Below are positions 16,367-25,757 of a DNA stretch of 64,000 bases, piece after piece. The notes beneath the pieces were generated by a model. It saw nothing but the letters and a program-made list of their open reading frames with translations. It was not told the origin of the DNA and searched no databases. Origin of the DNA: Arthrobacter sp. M2012083 (GTDB lineage: Bacteria > Actinomycetota > Actinomycetes > Actinomycetales > Micrococcaceae); the NCBI RefSeq assembly GCF_000281065.1, contig NZ_AKKK01000008.1, positions 1-64,000 of the forward strand, given 5' to 3'. The translations under genes were made by a program, and so were the position numbers. Numbering within the stretch: position 1 is the first letter of the stretch; each line of letters begins with the position of its first letter.

Positions 16367-16480
16367 GGTGAGCAGTCCCATTATTTTGGAGATTAGCCGT
16401 ATGCTTAGTGGAGGGTGATCCAGACCGTGCAGTCCGAACGTCGGCTGCAGCGTTGCCCGTTAGCGATACGGGGCACATTT

Positions 16481-17569
16481 ATGTCACCCACGTCCACCGC
16501 TGAGCGCCCCAAAGCTCGCGCAATTCAACCAAATCCCGTCGTCCAGAGCTACTCAGAGCTCCTCAAGAGCGTCAAGGCAGCCGGACTCCTCGAACGCCGT
16601 AGCGGCTTCTACATCTGGGTCTTCGTGGCCTTGGTACTGCTCATGGCCGGCACCTGGCTCGGCTTCGCACTCATCGGCGATTCCTGGTACCAGCTCTTGA
16701 TTGCTGCGGCTGTGGGCATCCTGTGCACGCAGCTTAGCTTCCTTGCCCACGAGGCAGGTCACAAGCAGATCTTCGCTTCGCGGCGCGCCAACGACTGGTC
16801 CGCCCGCCTCCTGGCCACCGGTGTGGCCGGCATCAGCTACTCCTGGTGGGAACAGAAGCATGGAGCCCACCACAACCACCCCAACGTCATCTCCAAAGAC
16901 CCGGACATCCGGAACAACGCCTTGGTGTTCTACGAAGACGCTGCAGCTGAACGTAAAGGCCGCCTGGCCTTCCTCACCAAGAAGCAGGGCTGGTTCTTCT
17001 TCCCGCTCCTGACGCTCCTGGGCTTGAGCTTGCAATTCGACTCCCTTCGCTTTGTTTTCGGCAAGCAGAAAGTTCGTCACCGCTGGGTAGAGACGCCTAT
17101 CCTCGTAGCGAGGCTCGCCGCCCTCCCGGTTCTGGCTTTCACATTCCTGCCCATCGGTATGGCGTTCGCCTTCCTGGGCGTGCAAATCATGGTCTATGGC
17201 TTCTACATGGGTGCCTCGTTCGCCCCGAACCACAAGGGCATGCCGGTCCTTCCCAAGGACAGCCGGGTGGACTTCCTCAACCGCCAGATCCTGACCTCGC
17301 GCAACATCTCCGGTGGCCTCTTCATGGACTTCCTCCTGGGCGGACTCAACCGGCAGGTGGAGCACCACCTGTTCCCGGACATGGCACGTCCCCATTTGTA
17401 CAAGGCCACCAAAATCGTGCGCGAGTTCTGCGCCAAACACTCCATTCCCTACACCGAAACCACGTTGGTGCAGTCCTACGGCATCGTGGTCAGATACCTG
17501 AATGAAGTAGGCCTGGCAGCAGGCCGCGGCTTCGACTGCCCCGTCGCGTCGACGCACGGACGCCGCTAG
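16481..17569 (+). CDS. Membrane fatty acid desaturase / acyl-CoA desaturase
   Basis: A 362-residue di-iron membrane desaturase with all three histidine boxes: HEAGH, HGAHHNH and QVEHH. The order HX3H, HX2HH, QX2HH matches linoleoyl-CoA/front-end type desaturases. Hydrophobic segments near FYIWVFVALVLLMAGTWLGF and the LLIAAAVGILCT region support a membrane location. It should add a double bond to lipid acyl chains, perhaps for cold adaptation (inference). GTG 16415 would add 22 residues, with GGAGG only two bases upstream, so ATG 16481 is preferred. Confidence 0.9.
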   Translation: MSPTSTAERPKARAIQPNPVVQSYSELLKSVKAAGLLERRSGFYIWVFVALVLLMAGTWLGFALIGDSWYQLLIAAAVGILCTQLSFLAHEAGHKQIFASRRANDWSARLLATGVAGISYSWWEQKHGAHHNHPNVISKDPDIRNNALVFYEDAAAERKGRLAFLTKKQGWFFFPLLTLLGLSLQFDSLRFVFGKQKVRHRWVETPILVARLAALPVLAFTFLPIGMAFAFLGVQIMVYGFYMGASFAPNHKGMPVLPKDSRVDFLNRQILTSRNISGGLFMDFLLGGLNRQVEHHLFPDMARPHLYKATKIVREFCAKHSIPYTETTLVQSYGIVVRYLNEVGLAAGRGFDCPVASTHGRR

Positions 17570-17654: not shown

Positions 17655-18620
17655 ATGACGCACGCCATCGTTGCAAAGCAGTCCGGAGGACCTGAGGTCC
17701 TCGAGTACGCATCCGTGGAAGTACCGTCGCCTGGCCCCGGCCAGCTGTTGATCAAGGTCGCAGCTGCCGGGGTCAATTTCATTGAGACCTACCAACGCAG
17801 CGGCACCTACAAGGTGGACTACCCGTTCACTCCGGGCGCCGAGGCAGCCGGCACCGTGGAGGCCGTCGGAGCGGGGGTTGAGGAATTTTCCGTCGGCGAC
17901 CGAATTGCCACGGCCGAGGGAACCAAGACCTACGCGGAATACGCACTGGTTGACGCGAGCAAGGCTCTGCCGGTTCCGGCCGGCGTCGATGATCACACTG
18001 CCGCGGCCCTGCCCCTCCAGGGAATTACGGCCCATTACCTGATGAATTCATCCTTCCGGGTGGAGCCCGGCCACACAGTTCTCCTGCATGCAGGTGCCGG
18101 CGGCGTGGGCCTGCTGCTGACACAGCTGCTCAAGGCCCGCGGCGCGCGCGTCATTACCACCGTCTCCTCCGATGAGAAGGCCGACCTCTCCACGCTGGCA
18201 GGCGCCGATGAAGTGCTCCGCTACGAGGGCTTCGCTGACAAGGTCCGTGAACTCACCGAGGGCGAAGGCGTCAACGTAGTGTACGACGGCGTAGGCAAGG
18301 ACACGTTCGACGACTCCCTTAAGAGCCTGCGCATCCGGGGTGCCATGGTGCTCTTCGGTGCTGCCTCCGGCCCTGTACCGCCGTTCGATCCACAGCGTTT
18401 GAACGCCGCAGGTTCGCTCACTCTGACGAGGCCCACCATGGCGCACTTTGTTCAGAACGCCCAGGAACGCCGGTGGCGCTCAGCGGAGATTTTTGACGCC
18501 GCCGCCAACGGCACCCTTGCTGTCAGGGTGGGCGCAACCTACCCGCTCGCGGAAGCCGCCCAGGCTCACAGGGACCTTGAAGGCCGCCGTACCACCGGAA
18601 AAGTCCTTCTGGTTCCCTGA
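17655..18620 (+). CDS. NADPH:quinone oxidoreductase, zinc-free MDR family
   Basis: A 321-residue medium-chain reductase: GroES-like N-terminal half and a Rossmann half with LLHAGAGGVGLLLTQL. The catalytic zinc cysteines of alcohol dehydrogenases are absent. GVNFIETYQRSGTYKVDYPFTPG is typical of QOR1 enzymes, which reduce quinones with NADPH. AAGGAG lies nine bases before the ATG. It stands alone between the desaturase and the NRPS gene; whether it takes part in their pathways is unknown. Confidence 0.9.
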   Translation: MTHAIVAKQSGGPEVLEYASVEVPSPGPGQLLIKVAAAGVNFIETYQRSGTYKVDYPFTPGAEAAGTVEAVGAGVEEFSVGDRIATAEGTKTYAEYALVDASKALPVPAGVDDHTAAALPLQGITAHYLMNSSFRVEPGHTVLLHAGAGGVGLLLTQLLKARGARVITTVSSDEKADLSTLAGADEVLRYEGFADKVRELTEGEGVNVVYDGVGKDTFDDSLKSLRIRGAMVLFGAASGPVPPFDPQRLNAAGSLTLTRPTMAHFVQNAQERRWRSAEIFDAAANGTLAVRVGATYPLAEAAQAHRDLEGRRTTGKVLLVP

Positions 18621-18728
18621 CCCTCTTGAACGCCATCTGTGCAAAAAGCGAACAGTGGGGGAACAAAGCCTGACGTGCAGGAAGCGGCGGACACCTTTTG
18701 TTCATCTTTCTGCGGAAAGCTGACAGAC

Positions 18729-21700
18729 GTGAGCACAGAACATCCCGCTGGGGCCGGTACGACGCCTGCCCTGATGACGTACCGTCCCCAGCTACCGGGA
18801 GGGGCCGCGGCTCCCGCCGAGCGAACTCTCGTTGACATCCTGGAAGAAACCGCTTCATCATTCCCCGAGGCGTCGGCCCTGGATGATGGGCACAGGTCGT
18901 TGAGCTACACCGAGTTACTCAAGGCCGTTCGCGCTTTTGCCACGCAATTGAATAATGCGGGGCTTGGCCGAGGAGACAAAATCGGCGTCCGGATCCCGTC
19001 CGGCACCAATGAGCTCTACATCGCCATACTTGGAATCCTCATGGCTGGTGCTGCCTATGTTCCCGTGGATGCGGATGACCCCGAAGAGCGGGCCCGTCTG
19101 GTTTTCGGCGAAGCCAGGGTGGGGGCAGTCATTGCCGGGGGCCTTGACATCCAGCTCTCCGGCCCGGCAAAGGAAGGTGTCTCAACGCCATCCGTGCCCG
19201 GATTGGACGACGACTCGTGGATCATCTTTACCTCCGGATCCACCGGGACTCCCAAGGGCGTCGCAGTGAAGCACCGTTCGTCAGCAGCGTTCGTTGATGC
19301 GGAGGCCCGGATCTTCCTCCAAGCTGAGCCGATCGGCCCGCAGGACCGCGTACTTGCCGGCCTTTCCGTAGCTTTCGATGCTTCCTGCGAGGAGATGTGG
19401 CTGGCCTGGCGGCACGGAGCCTGCCTGGTACCCGCACCACGGGCCCTTGTTCGAACCGGCATGGACCTCGGTCCCTGGCTCATCAACCACGGCATTACCG
19501 TAGTTTCAACTGTGCCCACCCTTGCCGCGCTGTGGCCGGCCGAAGCATTGGAAAACGTCCGTTTGCTCATCTTCGGCGGCGAAGCCTGCCCGCCTGAATT
19601 GGCCGAGCGCTTGGCAGTGGACGGTCGTGAAGTGTGGAACACCTACGGGCCCACTGAGGCCACGGTCGTTGCCTGCGCCGCGCCCTTGGGTGGACCCGGC
19701 CCCGTGCGGATCGGCCTGCCGTTGGACGGTTGGGACCTGGCCGTCGTCGATCCACTGGGCGTTCCGGTGGCCGAAGGCGAAATCGGCGAACTGATCATCG
19801 GCGGGGTAGGGCTGGCCCGCTACCTCGATCCCGCCAAAGACGCCGAGAAGTATGCCCCTATGACCACACTGGCATGGGATCGCGCTTACCGTTCGGGCGA
19901 CTTGGTGCGATACGACTCAGAGGGCCTGATCTTCATGGGAAGGGCCGATGAACAGGTCAAGCTGGGTGGACGCCGGATCGAACTCGGCGAAGTGGATGCA
20001 GCGCTTCAGTCCTTGCCCGGCATAGCCGGCGCGGCTGCTGCAGTACAGACCACCGCGGCCGGCAACCAAATCCTGGTGGGTTACCTGGCTCCCGTTGACG
20101 GTTACGAGCCGGACCTGAACGAGGCCCGCAGGCTGCTGGGCGAAAGCCTCCCGGCAGCCCTGGTCCCCTTGCTGACCATCGTCGATTCCCTCCCCACCAA
20201 AACCAGCGGAAAAGTAGATCGTCATGCCCTTCCTTGGCCGCTTGCGGGAGCCGGTGCCGCCGAGGCAAGCAACGCTCCACTGAACCTTCCCGATGATGCC
20301 CGCTGGGTGGTAGACCAGTGGGAGTCCGTGCTGGGAAGCCCGGTCAGTTCACTCGACGCCGATTTCTTCGCCTATGGCGGCGGGTCCTTGGCCGCCGCCC
20401 AGCTCGTTTCGGCCCTCCGCGTTCGGTACCCCACTATCACCGTCGCCGATATCTATGCGACGCCCCGCGTGGGGGCGCTGATTGACGCTGCAAGGCAGTC
20501 ACTTCCCGACGGCGGATCGCTGGGGCCCGCTGCTGAGCGCACCGTCCGTGCTACCGCCTTGAAGTCACAAATCTTCCAGGTCCTCATGGGCGTCCCGCTG
20601 CACATTCTCGTGGGAATGAGATGGCTGACTTACCTGATGGCCGCCAACAAACTCCTGGCAGACTTCGCCGGATTCGCGGCGGCACCCGTGGCCTCCTGGT
20701 GGTGGATCGCAGCGTCGTGGCTGGTCTTCGTCAGCCCCTTGGGCCGGATGGCGATCTCCGTGGTGGCGGCAAGGGTGCTGCTCGGCAGGATTGAACCCGG
20801 GACATATCCGCGATCGGGCAAGACCCATCTGCGGCTGTGGCTCGCAGAACAAATTCAGGATCTCTCAGGTGCCATCGGCCTTGCCAGCGCCCCGTTCGTC
20901 CCCTACTACGCGCGTGCCTTGGGTGCAAAGATCGGCAAGGACGTCCACTTGCACTCCCTGCCCCCTGTCACGGGCCTGCTGTCTTTGGGTAGTGGAGCAA
21001 ACATCGAGCCCGAAGTGGACCTATCGGGCTGGTGGGTGGACGGCGATTCAGTCCACATCGGCCAAATCCATGTGGGAGCCGGTGCCGTTGTGGGCGCACG
21101 CAGCACCCTCATGCCCGGAGCGACCATCGGCGCAGGCGCCCACGTCGATGCCGGATCCGCTGTGCTGGGCAAAGTGAAAGCCGGGCACCTCGTGGCCGGC
21201 TCCCCCGCAGAACGTCGCGGGAAAGCCAAGCACGAATGGCCGGCAGCAACCAGCCGACGGCCCGTCGTCGACCGGCTCTGGTTCTCCGCCTTCGCCAGCG
21301 CGTCGGCCCTGCTGGTCCTTATCCCCTACATCTCTGCGTTCGCGGGCGCACTGGTGGTCCTGAATTTCATCCAGGGCCATGAGTCGCTGGAAACAGCGCT
21401 GCCACAGATCGCCCTGGCCGTTCCCCTTGCGGCCCTGGTGTGGTTCTTCGGCAATCTGATGCTCATCCTGATCGTTGCGAGGCTTCTCGGTTTGGGCCTG
21501 AAAGAGGGCTACTACCGCGTGCGCAGCCGCATCGGCTGGCAAGTCTGGGCCACGGAGCGCCTTCTCGACATGGCTCGAGACCTCCTCTTCCCCGTCTATG
21601 CGAGCCTCTTCACGCCGCTCTGGTTGCGTCTCCTCGGGGCCAAAGTTGGCAAGAACGTGGAGGCCTCCACGGTGCTGCTGGTTCCAAAAATGACCACCAT

Positions 21701-22685
21701 CGGCGACGGCGCCTTCCTGGCTGACGACACTATGGTGGCCTCATACGAGCTTGGCGGTGGATGGATGAAAATTGCTCCAGCCAAAATCGGGAAGCGATCC
21801 TTCCTTGGCAACTCCGGGATGACCGCTGCTGGACGGAACGTGCCCAAGAACTCCCTTGTCGCGGTACTGTCTGCCACCCCCGCGAAAGCAAAATCCGGAA
21901 CCTCCTGGCTTGGCAGCCCGCCTGTCAGATTGCGCCGCACGGCCGTAAACGCCGACCAGACCCGAACCTTCCAGCCACCCCTCAAGCTCAAGGTGGCGCG
22001 CGCTGTGTGGGAACTGTGCCGACTGGTGCCCGTCATCCTCACCGTGGCGATCGCTGTCAGCGTCATGCTGGTCCTGGACTGGATAGCACGTGGCTGGGGT
22101 TACTGGATTGCGGCAGTCCTCGGCGGTGTAGTGATGCTGGCAGCGGGAGCCGTGGCGGCGCTCAGCTCCATGGTGGCAAAGTGGGTTCTGGTAGGAACCA
22201 TCCGCTCGGGCGAGCACCCGCTGTGGAGCTCGTTCATTTGGCGCAACGAGGTTGTGGACACCTTCATTGAAATGGTCAGTGCGCCGTGGTTTGCCCGCTC
22301 TGCCGCCGGAACTCCTGCCTTGGTGTGGTGGCTCCGTGGGCTGGGCGCCAAGATCGGCCGGGGAACGTGGTGTGAGAGCTATTGGCTCCCCGAGGCCGAT
22401 CTCGTGTCCCTTGGTGAGAACTCCACAGTCAACCGTGGCTGCGTTGTTCAAACGCACCTGTTCCATGACCGCGTGATGAGCATGGATACAGTGACGCTTG
22501 GAAATGGGGCAACGATGGGCCCGCACGGCGTCATCCTTCCCGCAGCCAGCATCGGCGACGGCGGAACTGTTGGTCCGGCGTCGTTGGTCATGCGTGGCGA
22601 AACCGTCCCGGCGGGGACGTATTGGATGGGTAACCCTGTGAGCCCGTGGGTGGGCCCGCCTGCACAAGCGCCCCGTCTCAAGTAG
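18729..22685 (+). CDS. Pls/PosA-type non-ribosomal peptide synthetase (cationic poly-amino-acid synthetase candidate)
   Basis: A 1,318-residue membrane NRPS without condensation or thioesterase domains. Adenylation domain about 35-500: IIFTSGSTGTPKG (A3, 165-177), FDASCEEMW (A4, 216-224), NTYGPTEAT (A5), YRSGDL (A7) and the K495 of TSGKVDR (A10). The carrier domain has GGGSL with phosphopantetheine Ser at 553. From about 610 on, membrane spans alternate with three hexapeptide-repeat (left-handed beta-helix-like) blocks, near 735-830, about 985-1050 and about 1215-1310. This is the layout of epsilon-poly-lysine synthetase relatives. By alignment to GrsA I read the specificity code as D-A-E-S-I-G-T-V-V-K, close to the lysine code. 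GTG 18729 is the chosen start; the frame is open back to 18639. Confidence 0.85.
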   Translation: MSTEHPAGAGTTPALMTYRPQLPGGAAAPAERTLVDILEETASSFPEASALDDGHRSLSYTELLKAVRAFATQLNNAGLGRGDKIGVRIPSGTNELYIAILGILMAGAAYVPVDADDPEERARLVFGEARVGAVIAGGLDIQLSGPAKEGVSTPSVPGLDDDSWIIFTSGSTGTPKGVAVKHRSSAAFVDAEARIFLQAEPIGPQDRVLAGLSVAFDASCEEMWLAWRHGACLVPAPRALVRTGMDLGPWLINHGITVVSTVPTLAALWPAEALENVRLLIFGGEACPPELAERLAVDGREVWNTYGPTEATVVACAAPLGGPGPVRIGLPLDGWDLAVVDPLGVPVAEGEIGELIIGGVGLARYLDPAKDAEKYAPMTTLAWDRAYRSGDLVRYDSEGLIFMGRADEQVKLGGRRIELGEVDAALQSLPGIAGAAAAVQTTAAGNQILVGYLAPVDGYEPDLNEARRLLGESLPAALVPLLTIVDSLPTKTSGKVDRHALPWPLAGAGAAEASNAPLNLPDDARWVVDQWESVLGSPVSSLDADFFAYGGGSLAAAQLVSALRVRYPTITVADIYATPRVGALIDAARQSLPDGGSLGPAAERTVRATALKSQIFQVLMGVPLHILVGMRWLTYLMAANKLLADFAGFAAAPVASWWWIAASWLVFVSPLGRMAISVVAARVLLGRIEPGTYPRSGKTHLRLWLAEQIQDLSGAIGLASAPFVPYYARALGAKIGKDVHLHSLPPVTGLLSLGSGANIEPEVDLSGWWVDGDSVHIGQIHVGAGAVVGARSTLMPGATIGAGAHVDAGSAVLGKVKAGHLVAGSPAERRGKAKHEWPAATSRRPVVDRLWFSAFASASALLVLIPYISAFAGALVVLNFIQGHESLETALPQIALAVPLAALVWFFGNLMLILIVARLLGLGLKEGYYRVRSRIGWQVWATERLLDMARDLLFPVYASLFTPLWLRLLGAKVGKNVEASTVLLVPKMTTIGDGAFLADDTMVASYELGGGWMKIAPAKIGKRSFLGNSGMTAAGRNVPKNSLVAVLSATPAKAKSGTSWLGSPPVRLRRTAVNADQTRTFQPPLKLKVARAVWELCRLVPVILTVAIAVSVMLVLDWIARGWGYWIAAVLGGVVMLAAGAVAALSSMVAKWVLVGTIRSGEHPLWSSFIWRNEVVDTFIEMVSAPWFARSAAGTPALVWWLRGLGAKIGRGTWCESYWLPEADLVSLGENSTVNRGCVVQTHLFHDRVMSMDTVTLGNGATMGPHGVILPAASIGDGGTVGPASLVMRGETVPAGTYWMGNPVSPWVGPPAQAPRLK

Positions 22686-22696
22686 ATTGGGACACA

Positions 22697-24040
22697 ATGA
22701 CCGCACCCACCAGCGCCCCCCGGACCTTGCCCGACCCCTACACCCTGGACCACGGCAGCACCAGCTACCGCGTGGACCGGTATGAGTTGGACCTCGACGT
22801 CAGGCTCGGCAGCAACAAGCTGATCGGCAAGGCGGTCCTCCGTTGCACGGCATTGGAAGCGGTCAAACAGATTGTCCTTGACCTGGTGGGCTTGAGGGCA
22901 TCCAAGGTTCAGCTGGACGGCAAGAAGGTCCAGAAGTTCAGCCAGAGGGCCGAGCACCTCGTGCTGTCGCCGGCATCCGCGCTGAAACCGGGGCAGCAGT
23001 TCTCGCTGGAGATCCGCTACGACGGAAACCCCCAGCCGCGTCGCGGCCTCTGGGGAGACGTGGGCTGGGAGGAATTGAACGACGGCGTACTGGTCGCCGG
23101 CCAGCCCAACGGCGCGGCGTCCTGGTTCCCCTGCAATGACCATCCCCGATACAAGTCCAGCTTCCTCATCTCCGTCACCACGGACGACAACTACCGTCCG
23201 GTGTGCAACGGCACGTTGGTAGCCCATTCCCGCAAGTCAAGCCGGGAAACGTGGGTCTACGAACAGGCGGAGCCCATGGCAACGTACCTGGCCACTGTGC
23301 AGATCGGCCGATACGCCAGGATGCCGCTGCACGTGGACGACACCGACCACCGGGTCCCCCAGTTCGTCGCAGTCACTTCCGAAATGGCCGTGGATGCTCT
23401 CCAAGGCCTGCGGCGGCAGCCCGACATGATGCGCACGTTCGAGGATTGTTTCGGTCCCTACCCGTTCGCCGACTACACCTCAGTGGTCACGGAGGACGAA
23501 TTGGAAATTCCGTTGGAAGCGCAGACTGTCTCAATTTTTGGACGCAACCACATGCGGGACGCTTGGGATTCGCAGCGCCTGATCGCCCACGAACTCTCCC
23601 ACCAGTGGTTTGGCAATTCATTGACCGTCAGCAGCTGGAAAGATATCTGGCTGCATGAAGGCTTCGCTTGCTATGCCGAGTGGCTGTGGTCCGAGGAATC
23701 CCGGACCATGACGGTTGCGGCCCGTGCGCTGGCTGCTTGGAAAAGGCTCGACGCCGGTCCGCAGGACCTTCTGGTGGGTGACCCCGGCCCTGAGCTGATG
23801 TTCGACGACCGTGTCTACAAGCGCGGGGCTTTGGCCGTTCACGCTGTGCGGACGGCCGTCGGGGATGCGGCGTTCTTCGATTTCCTGCAGCATTGGACGA
23901 ATGCCAACCGGCACGGATCAGTGTCAACCGTGTCTTTCATCGAAGCTGCTGACGCCTTCATACCGGGGTTTGATGCCGCGGCCATCCTGCGACCATGGCT
24001 GTACGAAACCGCGCTGCCGCCGCTGCCTTCCGTGCGTTAG
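22697..24040 (+). CDS. M1-family zinc metallopeptidase (aminopeptidase N-like)
   Basis: A 447-residue gluzincin beginning 12 bp after the NRPS stop, so the two are probably co-transcribed. The zinc site is HELSHQWFGNSLT with H298, E299, H302 and the third ligand E321 (HEXXH-18-E). The N-terminal part is the beta-sandwich of M1 enzymes. The usual GAMEN exopeptidase motif is absent; at that place the sequence reads EDELEIPLEAQT, so peptide binding may differ. The C-terminal helical domain is missing, as in short actinobacterial M1 proteins. No signal peptide, so probably cytosolic. It could trim or degrade the NRPS product (inference). Confidence 0.88.
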   Translation: MTAPTSAPRTLPDPYTLDHGSTSYRVDRYELDLDVRLGSNKLIGKAVLRCTALEAVKQIVLDLVGLRASKVQLDGKKVQKFSQRAEHLVLSPASALKPGQQFSLEIRYDGNPQPRRGLWGDVGWEELNDGVLVAGQPNGAASWFPCNDHPRYKSSFLISVTTDDNYRPVCNGTLVAHSRKSSRETWVYEQAEPMATYLATVQIGRYARMPLHVDDTDHRVPQFVAVTSEMAVDALQGLRRQPDMMRTFEDCFGPYPFADYTSVVTEDELEIPLEAQTVSIFGRNHMRDAWDSQRLIAHELSHQWFGNSLTVSSWKDIWLHEGFACYAEWLWSEESRTMTVAARALAAWKRLDAGPQDLLVGDPGPELMFDDRVYKRGALAVHAVRTAVGDAAFFDFLQHWTNANRHGSVSTVSFIEAADAFIPGFDAAAILRPWLYETALPPLPSVR

Positions 24041-24675
24041 CCGAGTGCCAGGGCGGCAACAAAACCGTCAGGCAATTCCCACTCGGTGACATCGCGCAGG
24101 CCGGGCCGGTCCAGCACCTCCAGCTCCGCGGGGTTATGCCGCAGCCCTTCCCCGGTCATCTTCAACCACGCTTCCTTGCGCGCCCACAGCCGGGCACGTT
24201 GCGTGGCTAGGTCCTGTTGCGGGACGGACGCCAGGGATTTCTTCTCGGCTGCGGTCAAGGCGACGTCGTCGAAGCCTCCGAACGCGACCCCGCCTACCGT
24301 TTCAAGGTCCACACCCAGCCGGAGGCCATCCGCTCGATGCTCGACGCCGGCCAGCAGCACCCAGCCGGCTGCCCGCGATGCGCTTAGCGCCAAAGGTGCA
24401 GGACCGCCGTCGAGCGTAAACCCAGGCCGGCCGTGGTCCTGCCCCGGCCCGCACTGCGGACAGTGATAGTCGGGGACGAGTCGAGCAGGATCCACCTCGA
24501 GGAGCGAAGCGGCAAAGTTCAGCAAGGCCAGCCGGCCAGCCACAAATTCTGCCCGATCCTCAGGGTTGGTGAATGTGTCGGCACGATCCAGGGCTGGTTG
24601 GCCGAGGGCTTGGACGCGGATGTCCGGAACGAGCAAGGCGTCGAGCTTCTGCAGCTCAAGTATTGGGCTGGCCAT
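24037..24675 (-). CDS. 4'-phosphopantetheinyl transferase, Sfp type
   Basis: A 212-residue transferase that moves phosphopantetheine from CoA to carrier-protein serines. Signatures: YHCPQCG..HGRP in the middle, LGVDLETV (Mg-binding Asp and Glu) and WARKEAWLKMTGEGL (second Glu and Lys). Downstream ends overlap the M1 peptidase by four bases, tail to tail. Its neighbour NRPS has an intact carrier Ser, so this enzyme probably activates it. ATG 24675 follows GGAAG; a GTG one codon earlier is equally possible. Confidence 0.9.
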   Translation of the reverse strand: MASPILELQKLDALLVPDIRVQALGQPALDRADTFTNPEDRAEFVAGRLALLNFAASLLEVDPARLVPDYHCPQCGPGQDHGRPGFTLDGGPAPLALSASRAAGWVLLAGVEHRADGLRLGVDLETVGGVAFGGFDDVALTAAEKKSLASVPQQDLATQRARLWARKEAWLKMTGEGLRHNPAELEVLDRPGLRDVTEWELPDGFVAALALG

Positions 24676-24890
24676 CACGGCTTCCAGGCCAGGTGTCGTC
24701 TTCCAGGGCGGACCATGCCCTGCATTTCCCTACGTGGACTATGTCTTGTCATTCAGGTTCTCTCACAGATATTGCCGGCTCGCCTCAGGCAAAACTCTAT
24801 CTGCTCAGCGCTTATGGCTCCGGACAGCAGTGTTTCCCGCAGCCACGTGGACGCTGCGGGAAACACTTTTAGCGGCGTGGTACAGCCGCG
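24676..24890. other. Intergenic region between PPTase and protease genes
   Basis: No gene of support. Contains the upstream region of the PPTase gene and one strong hairpin at 24830-24866 (listed separately). Short open frames on the plus strand have no recognisable content. Confidence 0.6.
24830..24866. terminator. Hairpin terminator after the protease gene
   Basis: Perfect 14-bp inverted repeat GTGTTTCCCGCAGC (24830-24843) with its complement at 24853-24866, 9-base loop, 24 bp after the protease stop. The T run (TTTT) lies on the plus side, so it would act best on plus-strand transcripts, yet position suggests it serves the minus-strand protease gene. Confidence 0.65.
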
Positions 24891-25757
24891 CTACTTCACT
24901 GAGGTGAGGTAATTCGCCAGCGTGGGTGTGATGCGCGTGCCTGAATTGTAGCTGCCACCGTTGGTATGGATGGCCATGATCGTGTTGGAGCTGTTGTAGA
25001 CGGGGGCACCGCTTTGTCCGCCGTAGGTGTCCATCTTGTAGTAGACCTTTTCCGTCGTTGTGCTCTCAATGGGGCCGGTCATCGACCACATGGTGCCAAA
25101 GGCTTTATCCCCCGGATAGCCACGGACCGTGGTGCTGGTTCCGTTCAGGCTGGCCGTGGTGCCGGCGTAGTTGAGCCAGCCGGTGGTGTTGCCGATGGTG
25201 CAGTCCAGTTTGATGACACCCCAGTCGGCGTTAGTGTTTGCGGAGTCGATCCAGCGTTGGTCGGTGAAGATCTCCGTTGCTCCGCAAGTGCCGTAGGGGT
25301 CGGTTGAGCCGTTGCGGCCCGGAGCAACTTTGACGCCCCACGAGTAATCGGCCTCAGAACCCGTGCCGCCTTCGTGCACACAGTGACCTGCCGTCAACAC
25401 GGTGTCATCGGAAATCAAGGCTCCGGAGCAAATGTATCCACCATTGAACTCGATCTGCACGATGGAGCGGTTGGGGGCAGCCGTGGTGTTGGTGATCCGA
25501 ACCCGGCCATCAGCGCCGATAACTGAGTCCGTGGACGCCCCTCCGGTCTTGGACGGGGCGGCGATGGCGTACTTATCCGCCAACGGCGAGGCGGCGGAAC
25601 CGGAAACCTGCGACTGGTCCACGGTGTGCGACACAGGCTGGACGTCTGCTACAGCCACTTGTGGCGTCGACTCTGACGCTACTGCGGCTCCGCCCAGCGA
25701 GGACGTCAAAGCCATAACTGCAGCCCCGACAAGCAAAGCAACATTCTGCTTCTTCAT
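24891..25757 (-). CDS. Secreted glutamyl endopeptidase-like (V8-type) serine protease
   Basis: A 288-residue exported protease. A signal peptide is clear (MKKQNVALLVGAAVMALTSS, then GGAAVASES with likely cleavage after AVA). A propeptide of about 60 residues follows. The catalytic triad is visible: His in LTAGHC, Asp in NADWGVIKLD, Ser in YGGQSGAPV. The downstream IHTNGGS block is typical of V8/glutamyl endopeptidases, where the His helps read acidic P1 residues. Two Cys pairs (ICSG/GHC and GTCG/LDC) may form disulfides. A large perfect palindrome lies upstream, so expression is probably regulated. Confidence 0.9.
   Translation of the reverse strand: MKKQNVALLVGAAVMALTSSLGGAAVASESTPQVAVADVQPVSHTVDQSQVSGSAASPLADKYAIAAPSKTGGASTDSVIGADGRVRITNTTAAPNRSIVQIEFNGGYICSGALISDDTVLTAGHCVHEGGTGSEADYSWGVKVAPGRNGSTDPYGTCGATEIFTDQRWIDSANTNADWGVIKLDCTIGNTTGWLNYAGTTASLNGTSTTVRGYPGDKAFGTMWSMTGPIESTTTEKVYYKMDTYGGQSGAPVYNSSNTIMAIHTNGGSYNSGTRITPTLANYLTSVK

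Follow-up and report, generated by a model that had tools for sequence, protein, structure and literature searches.

Which polymer is made by the Pls-type, nonribosomal peptide synthetase (NRPS)-like enzyme of Arthrobacter sp. M2012083, and what do the peptidase and the phosphopantetheinyl transferase (PPTase) encoded beside it contribute? The locus lies in a stretch of 64,000 nucleotides (positions 1 to 64,000 of contig NZ_AKKK01000008.1; hereafter the window) from a genome of 4.63 Mb. It comprises pls (18729..22685, plus strand, GTG start, with an alternative in-frame GTG at 18639), a gene for a PldII-like M1 metallopeptidase (22697..24040, plus strand) and a gene for an Sfp-type 4'-phosphopantetheinyl transferase (24037..24678, minus strand). 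Judged from sequence comparison, the locus probably makes epsilon-poly-L-lysine (epsilon-PL) or another L-lysine isopeptide polymer very like it, with a probability of about 85%. The locus had been read correctly by an earlier sequence-only reading, and the observation is mostly already explained: the locus type, a pls-pldII operon with homologues in Arthrobacter, is already published (PMC8117764; papers cited here by such numbers are represented by excerpts of their text).

The synthetase and its specificity code

The product of pls, 1318 amino acids (aa) with an adenylation-carrier-membrane/beta-helix (A-T-membrane/beta-helix) layout, scores 702.5 bits with the NCBIfam model TIGR02353 of the Pls/PosA family, whose cut-off is 423.1. 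Pfam finds an AMP-binding domain (E 3.5e-62), a PP-binding domain (E 2.4e-10) and hexapeptide repeats. The full set of four Pfam hits at E<=0.001 and the best 25 of the 106 NCBIfam hits include no model for a separate condensation or thioesterase domain, and the description of a Pls/PosA-type NRPS without these domains, given in the sequence-only reading, agrees with these results. The carrier serine (GGGS, 20385..20387, plus strand, within PF00550) is, from knowledge of the family, the site of phosphopantetheine attachment. Simple hydropathy marks five C-terminal segments (residues 665-1145), one of them weak, compared with six transmembrane segments between three tandem C-terminal domains in characterised Pls; an extra segment in the A domain is surely false.

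The monomer is indicated by the specificity code, whose codons span 19377..20213 (plus strand) and encode D217, A218, E221, S260, I281, G283, T305, V313, V314 and K495, that is, DAESIGTVVK. When the A domain is aligned to the solved A domain of Streptomyces albulus Pls (7wew; E 2e-196, with 2e-104 for the second-best solved chain), no gap adjoins a code site. All ten residues as first assigned by hand are correct and unchanged on this alignment. The lysine code quoted at that time was identical at eight of ten positions, and the code read directly from 7wew is identical at 10/10. DAESIGTVVK is present in 81/81 Pls proteins, namely that of the window and those of 80 relatives. The closest named relatives belong to Paenarthrobacter, with best tblastn segments of 94% identity in P. 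aurescens TC1, 91% in P. histidinolovorans and Paenarthrobacter sp. AR 02, and 89% in P. nicotinovorans.

Together with the code, two kinds of neighbour give the proposal of a lysine-like cationic isopeptide polymer its best support. The first is the M1 gene, found downstream of pls in 80/80 named loci, which are the best 80 of at least 589 confirmed and are biased to near relatives; the gap is wider in Tsukamurella and Williamsia, and L111 and L046 are probably one locus. The M1 gene is also downstream of pls in 11 of 12 further loci fetched by A-domain match. The second is dapA, a lysine-pathway gene. In 8/8 TIGR02353-positive genomes of two genera, g12 and g31 in the numbering of the survey below (L106-L108, L143-L147), pls is immediately followed by a dapA-like gene, and the Pls proteins linked to it carry DAESIGTVVK or DAESIGTVIK. 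In L106, the sole case run through Pfam, it matches PF00701 with E 6.8e-78. An HGSNAT/acyltransferase-like membrane protein follows the dapA-like gene in L106 (by Pfam) and L107 (by eye). A dapA-pls linkage was not met in the opening lines of the literature abstracts surveyed for it, which is weak evidence of absence.

The likeness to S. albulus Pls lies in the A domain and the ten-residue code, and close relatives of that protein are also of the TIGR02353 type over their full length, with an adjoining M1 gene. S. albulus-like genomes were sought among 392 genomes of one genus. The two nearest relatives of 7wew (A domain 93-94%) share just 52-53% full-length identity with the window Pls, and the S. 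albulus clade is a sister clade. In a FastTree phylogeny of 51 sequences rooted on proteins with the code DFECLSVVTK, L091 and the dapA-type proteins split first (0.95) and the S. albulus clade next (1.0), followed by a broad clade (1.0) that unites the window Pls with a second Pls type of the S. albulus-like genus. The tree includes the twelve loci fetched by A-domain match, of which L139-L141 come from other genera than that one. Two genomes, G856 (L133/L134) and G716 (L135/L136), carry both types; L136 has an M1 gene.

Another published parallel is found in coryneform bacteria. Jiang et al. 2021 described Pls homologues in Corynebacterium, Brevibacterium, Arthrobacter and others, with a peptidase operon and with lysine predicted from the pocket, and the pls gene of Corynebacterium variabile gave epsilon-PL in Streptomyces coelicolor (PMC8117764). 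By its published description, this system resembles the window locus in architecture, peptidase operon and predicted lysine pocket; the excerpts of that paper make no mention of a PPTase or dapA linkage. Clusters of the antiSMASH class NAPAA, which is named for epsilon-polylysine-like polymers, have been reported from the window's genus, in Paenarthrobacter lasiusi (best match stenothricin, 31%; PMC11719660), and from a neighbour of that genus, in Pseudarthrobacter So.54 (no similarity; PMC12025171). They are at most candidate counterparts of the window locus, and the excerpts of both papers contain no analysis of code, peptidase or PPTase.

Companion genes and exceptions

The association of the three genes was surveyed in 197 genomes of the window's family, with the genera numbered. 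TIGR02353 scores above its cut-off in 115 of them, a group that includes members with other codes (g8), and 82 are without it. A strong M1 match occurs in 103/115 genomes with TIGR02353 versus 0/82 without, at a limit (E<=1e-95) chosen after viewing the list; the match is split in two in G116 and in G141. At least two PF01648 genes are present in 106/115 versus 25/82 genomes and, within the 11 genera that show both states, in 59/62 versus 8/48. Fisher's test on co-occurrence gives p ~3e-20, a value that overstates independence, since the genomes are related. PF01648 misses diverged PPTases, and of the nine genomes scored without a second one, at least two (G020, G010) contain a PPTase-like open reading frame (ORF) according to an alignment-based model.

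The window PPTase, of 213 aa, matches PF01648 with E 4.4e-11 and shows the Sfp type in its motifs GVDLE and WARKEAWLK and in its length of more than 200 aa. Its placement directly after the M1 gene, as first described, stands, and the 3' ends of the two genes overlap tail to tail by 4 bp (24037-24040). A shared operon does not: the gene is on the opposite strand and is not co-transcribed with pls and M1, so membership in the pls operon is ruled out. The only other PF01648 match in the same genome is an AcpS-sized open frame of 118 aa. Four PP-binding matches are found there: a 90-aa frame, presumably AcpP; Pls; a 110-aa frame resembling an acyl carrier protein, beside an apparently FabH-like gene; and an 870-aa A-T-acyltransferase protein. 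The last (A-T-acyltransferase_3; C2:98748-101876, L090) is a possible PPTase substrate in its own right; its contig also carries hexapeptide-type matches at a distance of about 15 kb.

Among the 80 named loci, whose families are presumed, the alignment-based model detects a PPTase within the fetched sequence of 29/36 Micrococcaceae loci and 7/8 Microbacteriaceae loci. The match in L070 (Microbacteriaceae) is weak (E 6e-6), and at least one miss (L012) falls where the contig ends. Linkage in relatives, named as a check in the sequence-only reading, is seen for both companions of pls, for the PPTase mainly in these two families. The PPTase gene is convergent after M1 in most loci, lies on the same strand after M1 in L020, and stands upstream of pls in L030, L031, L107, L146 and L147. 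In L106 and L143-L145 a PPTase-like match with weaker scores (E 2e-15 to 3e-17) sits between the dapA-type block and M1. These varying positions point to functional association rather than inherited order alone.

Several observations weigh against the reading as an epsilon-PL locus with dedicated partners. The window Pls falls outside the S. albulus clade. Twelve of the 115 genomes with TIGR02353 (seven of g6, four of g8, one of g21) are without the strong M1 match. L091 (G060), the one g6 copy examined, has the code DAESIGTVIK and is a real exception to the pls-M1 pairing: its fetched 11 kb contain no M1 and its genome gives only a weak match, and L135 of the S. albulus clade shows no M1 match in its 10 kb. 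A linked PPTase is nearly absent outside Micrococcaceae and Microbacteriaceae (1/36 loci), and the window's genome holds two further carriers, beside Pls and the presumed AcpP, that the minus-strand PPTase could serve. Finally, under the conditions tested C. variabile itself made no detectable epsilon-PL, and its proteome showed no Pls (PMC8117764), so that such loci may be silent. That the window locus, too, is silent or decayed is a possibility of clearly lesser weight: none of the three frames is disrupted, and the catalytic motifs that were checked are conserved.

Much the same standing, possible but rather unlikely, is given to the idea of a general Sfp-type PPTase that sits beside pls by inherited order and serves other carriers. 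Its opposite strand, the two additional carriers and the 25 of 82 TIGR02353-free genomes with at least two PF01648 genes would fit a general enzyme. So would one of the sites without pls, L117, which retains a PPTase-like ORF (alignment model E 9e-24) in which Pfam finds nothing. Against it stand the way in which PPTase presence tracks TIGR02353 and the several arrangements within the cluster. In PMC4361855 the single excerpt that names phosphopantetheinyl transferase concerns gene-ontology enrichment.

Monomer and peptidase

A polymer of another cationic amino acid, such as ornithine, diaminobutyrate (DAB) or beta-lysine, is improbable. An Asp equivalent to GrsA D235 is expected for alpha-amino acid substrates, and the window Pls keeps it. 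The family does include poly-ornithine, poly-DAB and poly-diaminopropionate (poly-Dap) synthetases (PMC10522769, PMC8117764), and a title in a reference list attests a poly-beta-lysine antibiotic. PosA, the delta-poly-L-ornithine synthetase, shares with the window Pls the family, the equivalents of Asp217 and Glu221 and six of the ten code positions, but the other four differ (DMEHNGTVSK), among them Met for Ala, and it is reported as a single-gene operon (PMC10522769). The exchange M218A in PosA raised kcat/KM for lysine nearly tenfold (PMC10522769). A DAB-like locus, L102, also departs from the window in its code, DFECLSVVTK, which recurs in two other g8 copies, L103 and L109. An aspartokinase-like kinase and a class-III aminotransferase adjoin L102 and resemble the ask/dat pair known from published work on gamma-poly-L-diaminobutanoic acid (PMC8117764), so that neighbours and code agree in L102 as in the dapA-type loci. 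The code of the window Pls, identical to that of S. albulus Pls throughout, leads to the rejection of ornithine, DAB and beta-lysine as monomers.

Two related proteins without an adenylation domain were met in the family. The first (L104:4662-13765; G159, g8) combines a Pls-type membrane domain with four tandem carriers in 1124 aa, and a separate A-T protein adjoins it. Its neighbours, which we take to be SbnA-, SbnB- and TauD-type-oxygenase-like, possibly indicate a diaminopropionate polymer pathway with trans-loading. The second (L105:6269-9379; G084, of the window's genus) is similar, with three tandem carriers, and G084 also has a full-length TIGR02353 protein and a strong M1 match.

The peptidase, of 447 aa, begins 11 bp after pls (22686-22696), one less than the 12 bp first given. 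It matches the M1 models PF01433 and PF17900 (E 4e-24 and 4e-18), and its zinc motif HExxHx18E starts at residue 298. The zinc ligands and Y374, presumably the catalytic tyrosine, are conserved in 15/15 aligned M1 homologues. It is 39% and 40% identical to the M1 proteins that follow pls in two genomes whose A domains are 94% and 93% identical to 7wew. In S. albulus, likewise, an aminopeptidase gene, pldII, adjoins pls and is reported to be translationally coupled to it; PldII is described as the major epsilon-PL-degrading enzyme, located outside the membrane (PMC9223678).

In a plain hydropathy scan, which included up to 60 in-frame upstream residues and is not a trained predictor, the N-terminus of the window M1 lacks a hydrophobic segment (highest 15-residue hydropathy 0.02). 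The M1 proteins of the S. albulus clade in L131, L132 and L133 differ in having a Tat-like N-terminus (SRR and then a hydrophobic stretch; 1.36-1.90), whereas none of the remaining homologues exceeds 1.08. As no export signal is visible, the window enzyme is predicted to stay inside the cell, and it is called PldII-like rather than PldII on account of this predicted difference in location. The role in trimming or self-protection proposed for it earlier would then be that of a cytosolic enzyme. Another genome (L148; G005, g6) has a PldII-like M1 gene around which a fetched stretch of 14 kb, roughly 10 kb of it upstream, yielded no match to pls. M1 enzymes are generic, and all 197 surveyed genomes have at least one match at E<=0.001, but an ordinary aminopeptidase without a role in the polymer is highly doubtful, given that this M1 subtype is absent from 82/82 genomes without TIGR02353, stands beside pls throughout the named loci and has in PldII a relative that degrades epsilon-PL.

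Neighbourhood, proposed pathway and significance

The gene order is argB, argJ and argC (minus strand), a desaturase, a dehydrogenase, pls and M1 (plus strand), and the PPTase, a protease, pheT and pheS (minus strand). The arg and phe names are assumed from our own reading of the sequence; the order bears out the placement of the locus between two housekeeping operons. The fatty-acid desaturase (16415-17569, plus strand) precedes the zinc-binding, quinone-oxidoreductase-like dehydrogenase (17655..18620, plus strand), the upstream neighbour of pls, which is excluded from the pathway. Among genomes without pls, argC was located in eight and five sites were fetched; the dehydrogenase is retained in 5/5 and is thus not tied to pls. 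In one of them (G172, of the window's genus), 17 kb contain no match to pls, M1, PPTase, protease or desaturase; pheT is followed by a transposase pair (rve and HTH domains), which we take to be of the IS3 type, then by the dehydrogenase and argC. The transposase pair was considered as a possible cause of the loss of the block. The fetched stretches of L114-L116 have no match to pls, M1 or PPTase. The trypsin-like protease between the PPTase and pheT (24891-25757, minus strand) was matched solely in L008, L009, L022 and L112 (window's genus) and in L040 among the compared loci.

Synthesis would begin with the PPTase loading phosphopantetheine onto the carrier serine of Pls. The A domain, as its code supports, would adenylate L-lysine and load it onto the carrier, and the C-terminal membrane/beta-helix domain may, by analogy with characterised Pls, join the epsilon-amino to the alpha-carboxyl group and pass the chain out. 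The M1 enzyme, as a relative of PldII, would hydrolyse the polymer. The chances are about even that it acts intracellularly, on misdirected or re-imported chains. A wider proposal, put forward tentatively and with the odds against it, is that the partner M1 is an intracellular poly-lysine hydrolase throughout the broad actinobacterial clade and that, in Micrococcaceae, a dedicated PPTase has been gained and lost with pls.

Epsilon-poly-L-lysine is an antimicrobial polymer and a food preservative, and the host is a soil bacterium. The natural role of bacterial poly-lysine has been described as unclear (PMC9606270). A Pls-like A domain is matched at E<=1e-100 in 70/296 sampled genomes of the class, the window's genome included, and in 167/392 genomes sampled from a single genus that is most likely Streptomyces. 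Judged from these counts, poly-lysine capacity looks wider than the known producers. If the wider proposal is true, poly-lysine would be handled inside the cell, for recycling, length control or as a lysine store, with its synthesis switched on by carrier loading, in contrast to the export-only antibiotic picture drawn from S. albulus. A non-filamentous Paenarthrobacter that has a single locus, one PPTase of the Sfp type and a peptidase that appears to be cytosolic would offer a simple model system.

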